From an uncultured Alphaproteobacteria bacterium (GTDB lineage Bacteria > Pseudomonadota > Alphaproteobacteria > Puniceispirillales > UBA1172), in contig OY288107.1 in NCBI GenBank assembly GCA_958431225.1, positions 1,639,501 to 1,703,500 of the forward strand: DNA of 64,000 bases. The letters are read 5' to 3'. This document shows, in pieces, positions 30,756-55,600 of the stretch. The stretch's first letter is position 1. Each line of letters begins with the position of its first letter. Both the position numbers and the translations under genes were made by a program. Under the pieces are notes generated by a model. The model was not told the DNA's origin. It saw only the letters and a list, made by a program, of their open reading frames with translations, and did no database searches.

Positions 30756-30845
30756 GGAGAGGTGGCCGAGCGGTTTAAGGCGCACGCCTGGAAAGCGTGT
30801 TGGGGTGCAAGCCCCTCGAGGGTTCGAATCCCTCCCTCTCCGCCA
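30756..30845 (+). tRNA. tRNA-Ser(GGA)
   Basis: The acceptor stem GGAGAGG/CCTCTCC, discriminator G and encoded CCA enclose a class II tRNA. The anticodon arm is CACGC-CTGGAAA-GCGTG, giving anticodon GGA, and the variable arm (TTGGGGTGCAAGCCCCTC) is long, as in serine tRNAs. Confidence 0.97.
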
Positions 30846-30936
30846 CCGCCGAGCGCGGCGGGGCGGCGTGGGCGCGAATTTAATCTGCGCGGCGGGGCGG
30901 TTTTTTTGGTGCGTGTGTTGGGGGTAGGCGCAGAAT
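30846..30936 (+). repeat. GC-rich repeat element downstream of tRNA-Ser, terminator-like
   Basis: A perfect hairpin CCGCCG-AGCG-CGGCGG (30846-30861) lies directly after the tRNA 3' end. It is followed by one unit of the 30-bp repeat core (about 30862-30886), then a second GCGCGGCGGGGCGG (30887-30900; first copy 30853-30866) and a T7 run (30901-30907), which could stop tRNA transcription. The next ~30 bp (GGTGCGTGTGTTGGGGGTAG, then cgcagaat) recur in inverted orientation at 52198-52253, where the 30-bp unit is missing. From here to 31033 I see nothing else. Confidence 0.75.
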
Positions 30937-43173: not shown

Positions 43174-43740
43174 TTAGTCTCGCGCATCATTTAGATACAA
43201 ACACAAAACACACCCCACCAGCGCGGCGGCGAGGAATAGCGTGTAGCTACTAACAAAACTGCCGGTTGCGGTTTTGAGCGCACCGCCGGCGACATTCCCC
43301 AACGCCGCACCAACCCCAAGCCCAACATTGCCTAAACCAAAGATACGCGAAGCGCGCGCGCCGGAAAAATTGCGCGCAATAAACGCCGGAACAAGCCCAA
43401 AAATCGGATAAAACGCCATACCAAAGCAAATAGCAATCAGCCAAATCCAATAACCCTGCGCCAAGCCAACAATCAGCATGAGAGTAGAAATAAGAAGCAA
43501 AATGAGACTAATCATAAGCGACCAACGAATGGTAATCCTATCCCCCAACCAACCCATAAGAAACCCGCTAAACATCCCAACAACACCAATAATTTTCCAA
43601 GCCGTAGCCGTTTCCACCACACGATAACCATATTCCGCGACCAAAAACGAGGAAAAATAATTCTGAAACGGCACACAAGCAAACCCATGAAAAAACATAC
43701 TAATTATAACAAGTATAGCAAGCCGCCGCGGGGCGTTAAG
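43174..43740 (-). pseudogene. MFS transporter fragment: C-terminal half only
   Basis: About 186 residues comprising six hydrophobic segments of a major-facilitator C-domain. Visible are the TM7-TM8 region (ISMFFHGFACVPFQNYFSSF, WKIIGVVGMFSGFLMGWLGD with the MFS GxLxDR-type motif), a TM10-11 segment (FIARNFSGARASRIFGLGNV) and a terminal helix (LFLAAALVGCVLCLYLNDARD). No N-terminal half exists on this strand: immediately upstream is the 5 x 30-bp array, which in this frame translates into VRAHAAAPPS-type units. If translated through the array the product would be 256 residues, probably non-functional as a transporter. It is classed as a broken gene; a half-size expressed transporter is less likely. 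Confidence 0.65.
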
Positions 43741-43890
43741 GGACGGCGCGGCGGCGTGGGCGCGAACTGAGGACGGCGCGGTGGCGTGGGCGCGAACTGA
43801 GGACGGCGCGGCGGCGTGGGCGCGAACTGAGGGCGGCGCGGTGGCGTGGGCGCGAACTGAGGGCGGCGCGGCGGCGTGGGCGCGAACTAA
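43741..43890 (+). repeat. Array of five 30-bp tandem repeats (dispersed GC-rich repeat family)
   Basis: Five contiguous 30-bp units, 43741-43770 through 43861-43890, differing at a few sites (GGAC/GGGC start, GCGGCG/GTGGCG). Each contains GGCGTGGGCGCGAACT. Units are not separated by unique spacers, so it is not CRISPR. In one plus frame the array reads (T/A)ARRRGREL, the same phase as the EARRRGREY units in the Pr6Pr-like protein; on the minus strand it reads VRAHAAAPPS-type peptides. It sits between two truncated MFS genes. Confidence 0.95.
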
Positions 43891-44291
43891 AGGGCGAGAG
43901 GCAACAGAATTTTCCACAGCCCGCAACCCTGACCGCGCCCGCACCTGCCGCCACCAAGCAAGGCACGAGGCGCGAACGCCTACCTATTTTGCAGATGCTT
44001 CCCTCTTTGGCGGGGTATTTTTTCTTTGGCTGGGGGTATGTGGTTTATTTGGCCTTTATTGTCCAATGGGTGCGCAATGCCGGAGGGACGCCGCTTTTGA
44101 TATCTACGAAATGGTCCATTCTCGGTGTGGGGGTTATTTTAAGCGCATTTCTGTGGCGGGGGCTATTAGCAAAACACAAGAATGGCATACCACTTGCCGT
44201 GGCGACGATGGCAACCGCATTTGCGGCGGTTTTGCCGCTGATAACGGATACAACGAAAATTGCCGTGGAAGATATGAAGCGTATTGGATGA
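43891..44291 (+). pseudogene. MFS transporter (YbfB/YjiJ-like) fragment: TM7-TM9 region only
   Basis: On the plus strand a continuous frame runs through the array into a central-loop-like segment (APAPAATKQG, ATG-less) and then a typical YbfB/YjiJ-family second half: LPSLAGYFFFGWGYVVYLAF, IVQWVRNAGGTPLLISTKWS, GVILSAFLWRGLLAKHKNGI and TMATAFAAVLPLI, about three helices. It stops at TGA 44289-44291 before TM10. There is no N-half upstream: the sequence before the array is the minus-strand MFS fragment. The likely starts inside (TTG 43989, ATG 43995) would make a useless 3-helix peptide. It is a remnant, convergent with ccoS. Confidence 0.65.
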
Positions 44292-50420: not shown

Positions 50421-52022
50421 CTATCCTTTAATCAGTGCCGGTTGCAGAGATGCGGATTTTTTCTTGCCACTGCTGACCGTTTTCCACAGATTGACCGCCA
50501 TCAACACCGCCCCTGCCAAATAAAGCACCCCGCCAAACCCGCGCACTAGATAGAGCAGGTATTTCGCGCGCACAGTGTCGGCAAAGGAATTGACTAAAAA
50601 GCCTTGGCTATCCACCTCGCGCCACATCAACCCTTCCATAATCCCGGTCACCCACATAGAGGCGGCGTAAAGCACGATGCCTATGGTCGCTAGCCAAAAA
50701 TGCCAACTAACCAAGCGCGCCGAATAAAGCCCTTCACGTTGCCACAGACGCGGGACGAGAAAATACAGCACAGCAAAAGTAATCATCCCATTCCACCCAA
50801 GTGCCCCCGAATGCACATGACCTATTGTCCAGTCGGTATAATGGCTGAGGGAATTGACGGCTTTGATGGACATGACCGGACCTTCAAAAGTGGACATCCC
50901 ATAAAAAGCCAGTGCCAGCACCATCATGCGCAATACCGGGTCGGTGCGTAATTTATCCCACGCCCCCGATAGCGTCATCAGCCCATTGATCATCCCGCCC
51001 CAAGACGGCATCCACAACATCACCGAAAACACCATACCCAAAGTCTGCGCCCAATCGGGGAGGGCGGTGTAGTGGAGATGGTGCGGGCCCGCCCAGATAT
51101 AGAGAAAAATCAACGCCCAAAAATGAATGATGGATAATTTATAACTATAAATGGGGCGATTGACTTGTTTAGGCACAAAATAATACATCATCCCCAAAAA
51201 CCCAGCAGTGAGAAAGAATCCCACCGCATTATGCCCATACCACCATTGGGTCAGCGCATCTTGGACGCCAGCAAATAACTGCACCGATTTTGACCCGTAA
51301 ATAGACACAGGGATTGAGATATTATTGACCAAATGCAGCATCGCCACGGTGATGATAAAGCTCAAATAAAACCAATTTGCCACATAGATATGGGGTTCGC
51401 GGCGTTTCATGAGCGTGCCAAAGAACACTGCCAAATACGCCACCCACACCATCGTCAGCCAAATATCGGTATACCATTCGGGTTCGGCATATTCTTTGGA
51501 TTGCGTTGCCCCTAGCACATAGCCTGTCGCCGCCATGACGATAAAAATCTGATAGCCCCAAAACACAAACCACGCCAGATTCCCGCCCCAGAGCCGCGCC
51601 GCAGAAGTGCGCTGAACCACATAAAACGACGAGCAAATCAGCGCATTGCCGCCAAAAGCAAAAATCACTGCCGAAGTATGCAAAGGACGCAACCGCCCAA
51701 AACTCGTATAAGATAGATTCAAATTGAGTTCAGGAAATACCAACTGAAACGCGATGACAACACCAACCGCAAACCCCACCAACCCCCAGAATGCCGTAGC
51801 AATAACGCCCGCGCGTACCACATCATCCATATAAGTTTTGGCAAGTGTTCGGGGCAGGGCGGCGGGTGCGACCTCAAGGCTACGCCAAATCAGCGTCGCC
51901 GCCCCCGCCAAAACCAAAACCAACATAGCGGTCTGATAAGCCAAATCCTCCCCGTGCATCAAACACCACCCAGCGAGAAGCACCCCCAAAACCAAAACCA
52001 CATTCAGCAAAGTCTTATCCAA
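50421..52022 (-). CDS. ccoN: cbb3 cytochrome c oxidase catalytic subunit I CcoN
   Basis: The catalytic subunit with low-spin haem b and the haem b3-CuB centre, a high-affinity terminal oxidase. His-containing motifs are [16 protein letters not shown] (haem b), [16 protein letters not shown] (CuB and the cross-linked Tyr region), [14 protein letters not shown] and [14 protein letters not shown] (haem ligands). I place the start at TTG 52022 ([10 protein letters not shown]), 533 residues, because AAGGAGGG lies immediately upstream, while the frame continues to ATG 52085 without such a signal. It heads the leftward ccoNOQPGHIS unit. Confidence 0.93.
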
Positions 52023-52197
52023 AAAGCCCTCCTTTGAAAAGGCATGATAGGCTATCCTAAAAGATGATAGCGCAAACAACCGCATCAACCAAGAACAAAA
52101 TTGTCGCAGGGGAAAATTCTACGCTATCAACAAAATGCGGGTAAAAAGCGGCACAGCGTTCGGTGGCGCGGCACCACGTTCCGCACCAAAACATCCC

Positions 52198-52253
52198 ATT
52201 CTGCACCTACCCCCAACACAAGCACCAAAAAACCGCACCGCCGCGTTCGGCGG
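52198..52253 (-). repeat. Second copy of the GC-rich repeat found after tRNA-Ser
   Basis: Read on the minus strand: hairpin CCGCCG-AACG-CGGCGG (complement of 52238-52253), a T6 run, then GGTGCTTGTGTTGGGGGTAG and cagaat, matching 30846-30861 joined to 30895-30936 at nearly every base but lacking the intervening 30-bp unit. A degraded relative occupies about 52150-52185. Located between ccoN and the giant lipoprotein gene. Confidence 0.75.
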
Positions 52254-52332
52254 CACACCGAATGATTTGTTGCTTTAGGTTGCCATCGGATTGTGTATTG
52301 TGCCATCCCAGTTTAGTAATGTACGTTGCAGA

Positions 52333-52440
52333 ATGCGTTCATCATTCTCCGACGTTCCTATTTCATCCCTTCCGCCACCTCATTGGGGCGCAGTGTGGCG
52401 GAAGGGTTGAAATAGGGGCATCGAAGAATGATGGGCGCAT
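52333..52440 (+). repeat. Long imperfect palindrome with 46-nt arms and a 16-nt loop
   Basis: Arms 52333-52378 and 52395-52440 match at 39 of 46 positions as inverted repeats. As a plus-strand RNA four of the seven differences are G-U wobble, two are C-A and one is U-U. There is no T run after it, so it is not a simple terminator. Beyond it, 52441-52613 shows no clear gene, only the lipoprotein start signals. Confidence 0.85.
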
Positions 52441-52613
52441 GGCAGTAATGAAGCCTTTTGCGAAGTCTTGGCGATTTTTTCGTTATTGTTACGGGCGCTT
52501 ACCTCAATTGCCCCACCATATAATACCAAAGGCTAGTTTTTGTTGCAAATGCTGTGTGCTTGTTCTAGGTTGTGAAAGATGTGCTATTGTTAATTAATTG
52601 GGAAGATTAAATC

Positions 52614-55600
52614 GTGCCAAATTTGCTCAATAAGCGACTTGATGCGCATAAAAATCGCACCTCAGCGGGCTTTACTGCGGGGGTATGGACGCTTTCGGGT
52701 GTTGTGCTGGCTGCTTGTGGTCTTTTTGATGATGACGATGGGGGCGGTCATGCGCTCCATGTGCAACGCAGCCCGGTTCAGGGGGCGCGTATTTATTTTG
52801 ATATGAACAATGATGGCGTCATTGATGCCACTGATGAGGCGATGCAGGATGCGGTGTTTCCGCAAGGTTTCGTCACCGATGCCGCTGGGCGGGCGCACAA
52901 TATCCCGGCGGTTTTCCAAGACCTCCCATTCAAGGCAGTGCTTGACGGCGCCATTGATGCCGATACCGGCGCGCCATTAAGCGGTGCGCTTCACTCCATC
53001 CCCGATGCCAATGGCGCGCACCGCCTAACCTCGCCGATTACCGATTTGCTCGCCGATGACAGCAAAACCCCCGAGGAAGTGGCGCGCGCATTATTGCCCC
53101 ACGCCGATAACGCAGAAATCACGCGCATATTGGAGGCGATTAACGACCCAAGAAACTATCTAGGCGGGGATGATGGCGTTGAGGGTTTTGCGTTCTTTTT
53201 GGCGACAGAGACAGAGGCAGGGCGCACCCCCGCCCCCACGGATAGCGCAGTGCAGAGCAAAGCGGCGCAATATCTGACCGACAGCCCCACCGACACGCTC
53301 ATCGTTGTCAATGAAGATGCCGATGCCGACCCGGCTTTCATTGATTTGCCAGCAAAAACCATAGGCGCGCATGATTCCTATGTAGCAACGATTCAGGCGG
53401 TGAGCCATGCGGGTGGCGTGAACTATCGCTTTGTTGATGCTAATGGCACCCCCGCAGATATCAGCGATTTTAGCATTAATGCGCAGGGCGTTATCTCATT
53501 TGTCGGCGAGAATCCAACCACGGCAACCCTACATATTGAGGTCAGCAACGGCGATGAGGCAGAAACCGAAATCGTGCGGATTGAGGTCACGGTCGCACCC
53601 GCCCCAACTGTGGACGAACTCCCCGCCGGTGATGAGACTGCCACGATTATGGAAAATGTTGAGGGTGCGGCGGGTGATGGCACGGCTTTGATTACCGGCA
53701 TCACAACATCCGCGACAAATCCCTCATGGGAGATTAGCGAGGCTAACCCTGCGGGGTTGAGCGCCATTATGGACAAATTTGAAATTGTATCTGGCAGTGG
53801 CATCACCTTCAATCTAGTGCTGAAAGCTGGCGCAAGCCTAGATTATGAAACGATTCCCGGTGGCGTGTTGAATCTGCACCTGTGGGCGCAAGAAAACGGC
53901 GTCCGTTCTAACCCACTAGCATTACGGATTCAGGTTGAAAATGACCCAGACGAGGTAGGCTTTAGCGGTAGTTTTACTGGCATCGTGACAGAAGACGGCA
54001 ATGGCATCGCGCGCGGGAGGGTTAGCGTTGAAAATCAGGACAGCGCCACCGCTACCGCCACGGATGGCACTTACGGCACATTAGAATACACCGATGGACG
54101 CTGGATTTACACGCTAGACAACACCAATTCTGCGGTCAATGCGTTGCGCGCAGGCGAGGTTTTGATAGACACAGCAACAATAACCCTCAGCAGTGGCGAG
54201 AGCCAAAACATCGTCATCCGCATCAACGGCGCTGATGAGGATGTGCATTTCCTCAACGACACAGGCACCCGCACCGCCGATGCGCGCGTAGATGTTGAAC
54301 TCGGCAACCCGGTGCTTGCGGGCGAGGATATTTTTGACGGCTTAACCCTAACCAACGCGACTTTAGCGGATATTGAGGTAAAATTTGCCGATACGGGGGA
54401 AAATTATAATTTATTCACCATAACTGACGCCGGGCTTCTAACTTTCACCGGCACCAATGAAGATGTCGCAAGTTTCGGCAACGGCATCACGCTAAATCTA
54501 CAAATCACCGCCCCAACTTTAACCACGGCAACGCTTCCATTCGCTTTGCAGGTCAATGTCATCAATGCGGTTGATGATGGGCGCGTCGCCTATGAAATTG
54601 TCGGCGATGTCGCGGTAGGGCAGCTCCTCAGGGTACAGGAGGTGCAAGGCTCAACCGACCCCGATGGCGTTGTCGGCGATGTCAGCTTCCAATGGTTTAG
54701 AGGCGATGAAAACGCCCCCACCTTACTCCGCACCGGCGAAACATACCGCGTCACCCAAGCCGATATAGATTCCGGCGACAGCATCGGCGTTTTCGCCATC
54801 TACACCGATGGCTCCGGCACGACCTACACGCACAGGGATAATGACGTTGCAACAACCATCACCGCCTTTGCCACCCCGGTGAAATTCACCAGCCCCGCCA
54901 TCAACGCCCGCACGATAGACCTAAATGAAAACACTGGCGCAACTAGCACGGTGCATTTTGCTGTGGCGGCGACCTCTTCGGATAATTCTGGTCCTGTTGA
55001 TATTGCTACCTATATGTTTATTGATGACACAGACACAGCAACGACAAGCTATAGGGGCTTTACGATTAATCCGAGTTCGGGGGCAATCACGCTCACAGGT
55101 TCATTGGATTTTGAAGACACACATAGAGATGGTAGCACCATAAACCTGCGCGTCCGTGCCACCGATGACAATGCCGAAACTGCGGATATCACCCTGACCG
55201 TCAATCTCAGTGATGTGAACGAACACGCCCCAGTATTTGCCACGAACGCTGACGATTCCGCCCTGACTGACGGCACGGAGGAAATTGCTGAGGATGTCGC
55301 AAATGGCCATAGGGTTGGGCTATTCCGTGCAACAGATGCGGATGGCACGAATAATGATGTTACCTACAGTTTGGACGATGGCGGTGTTGGCGTGTTTGGT
55401 ATTCGTGCGGTGGCAGGCACTGATAATTGGGAAATTTATGTGGCTGACAATACTAATTTGGATTTTGATGGAAGCACCAAAAGCTACACCATAAGGATTA
55501 CGGCTTCCGATAGCGACCCTGATAGCGTTATGTCCTCCCCGCCCGAGGCGGTCACCATCACGCTCAGCGATGTCAATGATATCGTGCCCACCTATACGAC

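Follow-up and report, generated by a model that had tools for sequence, protein, structure and literature searches.

The long hairpin at positions 52333-52440 of the window (the whole 64,000-nucleotide stretch of alphaproteobacterial DNA that was analysed) is best explained as an intergenic quasi-palindrome, and we infer, with a probability of roughly one half, that it arose from a local inverted duplication by template switching, is now drifting, and serves no dedicated function. Overall, the initial annotation of this locus was partly supported: its exclusion of a terminator was right, whereas the identities that it offered (a small MITE, a structured 5' leader, or a small RNA) proved weakly supported or disfavoured, as set out below.

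Anatomy and folding of the hairpin

An inverted-repeat search recovered the same arms that had been annotated, each 46 nt long, complementary at 39 of 46 positions (85%) and separated by 16 nt (Table 1). With its nearly identical inverted arms around a short spacer, the hairpin has the form of a quasi-palindrome. In plus-strand RNA the hairpin folds at -73 kcal/mol, compared with a mean of -33 kcal/mol for shuffled sequences (z = -10.85, with 0 of 200 shuffles matching it), and the minus strand folded as DNA gives a z-score of -11.3. Four of the seven arm mismatches (52338, 52339, 52355, and 52356) are G-U pairs in plus-strand RNA, a count that the initial annotation had given correctly; it had left unmentioned the two mismatches at 52349 and 52353, which are C/A in the plus strand and hence G-U in minus-strand RNA only. 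The last mismatch, at 52366, is T/T. The differences between the arms comprise six transitions and one transversion, the transitions being split 4:2 between plus- and minus-strand G-U pairing, as expected if a perfect palindrome had drifted, and this split is no real sign of selection keeping RNA pairing on one strand. Transitions also predominate (18:8) in a decayed gene fragment elsewhere in the window.

The claim that the hairpin is not a terminator held up, since a T tract directly after the stem is absent and the combination of a short GC-rich stem with an immediate T run is not found here. Frames of 26 codons were seen by eye on both strands of the hairpin; they mirror each other because the sequence is a palindrome, and are therefore no evidence of coding.

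Table 1 Coordinates of the hairpin and of the features around it, in window positions
Feature	Position	Strand	Method
Left arm of hairpin	52333..52378	+	Inverted-repeat search, RNA folding, arm comparison
Hairpin loop, 16 nt; internal pairing in part in the RNA model	52379..52394	+	Inverted-repeat search, RNA folding
Right arm of hairpin	52395..52440	+	Inverted-repeat search, RNA folding, arm comparison
Weak stem abutting the hairpin, in plus-strand RNA only; 13 pairs including 5 G-U	52441..52490	+	RNA folding
Homolog of the upstream region of a YbfB-type MFS gene (G000:C1:1223261-1223402, minus); takes in 12 nt of the left arm	52202..52344	+	
Terminator-like stem with T run, in a multi-copy repeat family of this genome	52234..52257	-	Genome search
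COX1-family oxidase subunit gene, ccoN-like, heading a cco-type operon; divergent neighbour	50421..52055	-	
Upstream block common to several lipoprotein paralogs	52537..52614	+	Upstream-sequence comparison
Giant cadherin-domain lipoprotein gene, GTG start at 52614, running off the window; open frame of 8146 aa in the genome	52614..63998	+	

A long hairpin found once

The length of the hairpin is unusual, its score alone less so. In an ungapped hairpin scan of 460.5 kb of the own genome (the window plus 20 sampled stretches), three inverted repeats exceeded the threshold: this hairpin with a score of 25, a 17-bp repeat (score 17), and a repeat pair of poor match around a 56-nt loop (score 14). 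No other inverted repeat in those 460.5 kb rivalled it in the length and pairing of its arms. A comparison set of 80 alphaproteobacterial loci (1.03 Mb) retained six hairpins once 179 of 185 rows, which came from a run of N in one locus (L048), had been dropped. The longest arm among these six was a perfect 26 nt, with a score of 26, slightly above that of the hairpin studied here, and it is therefore the arm length that stands out.

When the genome was searched with the hairpin stretch, the only hits with E below 0.1 were the query itself and its reverse complement. The 14-15-nt matches found at E 0.8-2.8 were treated as chance, the four places inspected lying inside coding frames or at unrelated sites. 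Plasmid records and phage records held no copy of the hairpin, and viral contigs gave no match to an exact 22-base pattern.

The same holds among relatives. Sixty other genomes of the order yielded zero matches to a 171-base query, and the hairpin was unmatched in 135 other genomes of the order, three of which match only 29-33 nt around 52520-52551, beyond the hairpin itself. In a class-level sample of 385 genomes, one other genome (G436) matches 24 nt of the right arm (E 9.7e-4); we rejected this match, as it resembles coding sequence, is at about chance level over 385 genomes, and is absent in the own genome. The neighbouring oxidase gene is itself absent from the six other species of the genus that were compared, its sole strong match being in another genus of the family, and the region therefore cannot be aligned with that of a close relative. 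Genome contigs scanned with the oxidase protein gave matches in more distant alphaproteobacteria alone, with none from this species. None of the compared relatives carries the region or a one-armed ancestral allele, so that the proposed duplication is not itself observed.

A copied left flank in a mosaic setting

The sequence to the left of the hairpin, together with the first 12 nt of the left arm, has a counterpart elsewhere in the genome, namely upstream of a YbfB-type transporter gene (Table 1), which lies 0.47 Mb away at 1.223 Mb of the genome. Over 122 aligned positions the two copies differ by 7 substitutions, in addition to indels. From 52258 on, they differ by a single substitution in 66 aligned positions, the window copy having 20-nt and 1-nt insertions. 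Further out, positions 52200-52257 belong to a repeat with 44 genome matches at E up to 10, a family found at many places in the genome whose variable, terminator-like stems resemble CCGCCGAACGCGGCGG and precede a T run. In addition, a fragment of the transporter gene (residues 202-308) is found at 43932-44252, with 89% identity in protein and 92% in DNA. Displaced pieces have clearly accumulated in this part of the genome, and we counted the copied left flank, the transporter fragment, and the 44-match repeat in favour of the quasi-palindrome reading.

The divergence of the flank copy complicates that reading. With 1 difference in 66 positions against 7 in 46, the flank is much less diverged than the arms (Fisher p = 0.008; p = 0.023 when the 12 arm positions that the flank copy shares are left out), and this was counted against a simple recent event, which does not fit: either the arms are older than the flank copy, or they were imperfect from the start, or they drift faster. 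If drift was equal, the arms would be the older, and the copy at the transporter locus would then have come from here and broken off inside the hairpin. Alternatively, the flank may be constrained or the arms may have been imperfect at their origin; the counts are small, and copying may have run in either direction.

We also considered whether the ATG at the beginning of the left arm might be a leaderless start of the transporter gene, since the transporter locus has the same ATGCGTTCATCA. This was dropped, the ATG probably being a coincidence, because the better start at the transporter locus, on our reading of the sequence, is a TTG after AAGGGGAGG, further down.

Proposed origin by inverted duplication

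Under the preferred reading, some 46 nt would have been copied in inverted orientation beside themselves in one replication accident, leaving the 16-nt spacer. The accident would have been a template switch onto the nascent or the opposite strand, after which the arms would have drifted apart by their seven differences. Directly observed are the palindrome itself, its single copy in the genome, its absence from the relatives searched, its place apart from the block common to lipoprotein paralogs, the near-absent strand bias of the arm differences, and the mosaic surroundings. Template switches of this kind are documented for E. coli (PMC7202029) and have been proposed as a source of RNA hairpins (PMC8794818). 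The hairpin resembles the quasi-palindrome reporters of E. coli and template-switch duplications in being an imperfect inverted repeat with a short spacer, present in single copy and with no conserved partner. It differs in length, the E. coli reporter of PMC7202029 being an 18-bp quasi-palindrome as compared with arms of 46 nt here, and it departs from the cases in both sources (PMC7202029, PMC8794818) in that its arms have already diverged at 7 of 46 positions and no ancestral allele is seen. If this reading holds, the hairpin is an ordinary example of replication errors making long hairpins in bacterial intergenic DNA, and it cautions against calling every stable hairpin a small RNA.

Relation to the giant lipoprotein gene

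The hairpin sits in the intergenic region between the divergent oxidase and lipoprotein genes. The giant lipoprotein family comprises about 15 genes in the 2.3-Mb genome, with open frames of up to 8648 aa (17 matches were obtained, two of which were read as second pieces of listed genes). We compared 15 upstream stretches, from 14 paralogs and one further DNA match. An upstream block shared among several paralogs has its start near 52537, some 100 bp beyond the hairpin, and likely holds the lipoprotein gene's own promoter and ribosome-binding site. None of the 15 stretches carries such a hairpin; their best inverted repeat reaches a score of 11, where the hairpin scores 28.5 by the same measure. 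The control region that the lipoprotein genes share thus does not include the hairpin. It had been described as standing ahead of the giant lipoprotein gene, which is correct as to position; the implied tie to that gene finds no counterpart in the family. On the same grounds (the distance to the common block and the 0/15 count), we rejected the hairpin as a leader of the lipoprotein gene, and the structured 5' leader proposed earlier is disfavoured.

Possible structured RNA

A transcript may instead start near 52333 from the transporter-like flank, its 5' end being the 108-nt hairpin, which would act as an RNase III substrate and give rise to a small RNA or a stabilised transcript. We consider this possible but unlikely. 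It would agree with the very stable fold, with the flank copy just upstream in the correct orientation, with the four of six transitions that still pair in plus-strand RNA, and with the second weak stem that adjoins the hairpin in plus-strand RNA only. That second stem, however, was not claimed, its z-score falling from -2.7 with hand-picked ends to a non-significant -0.9 after lengthening by 9 nt. The flank promoter is a reading of the sequence. A promoter scan of 51900-53000 gave no promoter-like site on the plus strand, and the candidate -10 element, TAGAAT at the transporter locus, reads TAGTAAT in the window. The only plus-strand terminator-like site (52244-52264) is upstream of the hairpin, and none follows it on that strand. 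The order and class samples provided no homolog that could show compensatory change, and Rfam returned nothing at gathering score, its seven sub-threshold rows all being microRNA precursor models. For the RNase-processed small RNA suggested earlier, foldability is the one supporting observation.

In a more specific form of this reading, the hairpin would open a structured transcript peculiar to this lineage. Template switching next to the copied, transporter-type upstream sequence would have given rise to it and RNase III would process it, making it a new bacterial small RNA soon after its origin. We regard this as very unlikely; if the hairpin is transcribed, it would show how an inverted duplication can give birth to a structured RNA. 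A small RNA on the minus strand, with a promoter-like site at 52549-52520 as its start and the terminator-like stem at 52257-52234 as its end, is possible; it was not claimed, the promoter scan having given 3 sites against 1.2 expected in shuffles.

Mobile and regulatory DNA elements as unlikely alternatives

Bacterial MITEs such as ERIC, Correia/NEMIS, and RUP are near 100 bp in size, have long terminal inverted repeats, and lie in intergenic DNA. The hairpin is similar to these in size, inverted repeats, and intergenic place, and differs from them in having neither other copies nor an abutting target-site duplication. That it is the single survivor of a fold-back MITE, or a decayed mobile element, is in our view doubtful and quite unlikely. 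Its size and full-length terminal inverted repeats recall fold-back elements, a GCAG direct repeat occurs on both flanks (TGCAGA and GGCAGT, as read from the sequence), and the displaced copy of another locus ends inside the hairpin. This GCAG repeat, however, is offset by 1 bp on each side and does not abut the hairpin as a target-site duplication would; no second copy was found in the genome, plasmids, phages, or (as the exact pattern) viral contigs; and the homology to the transporter locus enters the left arm by 12 nt, which means that the left end lacks the sharp edge expected of an insertion. The small MITE of the initial annotation accordingly lost ground on both counts, copies and target-site duplication.

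Very improbable indeed is a cis-acting DNA element, in which a cruciform or a palindrome bound by a regulator would control either the lipoprotein gene or the divergent oxidase operon. The placement in a divergent intergenic region and the ability to fold as DNA too would suit such a role; against it, the hairpin is absent from all 15 paralog-type upstream stretches, no FNR-type box lies nearby except for one site with 3 mismatches at 52117, and usual operators are far shorter. Integron attC sites are imperfect inverted repeats of ~60-140 bp that fold on one strand and have the core sites RYYYAAC and GTTRRRY; the hairpin is likewise an imperfect inverted repeat in that size range, and its ends, ATGCGTT and GGGCGCAT, do not hold these core motifs when inspected by eye.

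Other features of the window

The terminator-like repeat also occurs at 30888-30936, just past a tRNA-Ser gene (30756-30845), and positions 1202134-1202308 of the genome match 30756-30932 of the window at 84%. Between 31522 and 43146, two adjacent reading frames of 631 and 3201 aa are rich in GGxGxD-type repeats, which we take to be RTX-like. At 43740-43896, short tandem repeats of ~30 bp end an MFS-like frame, and the transporter fragment at 43932-44252 follows.
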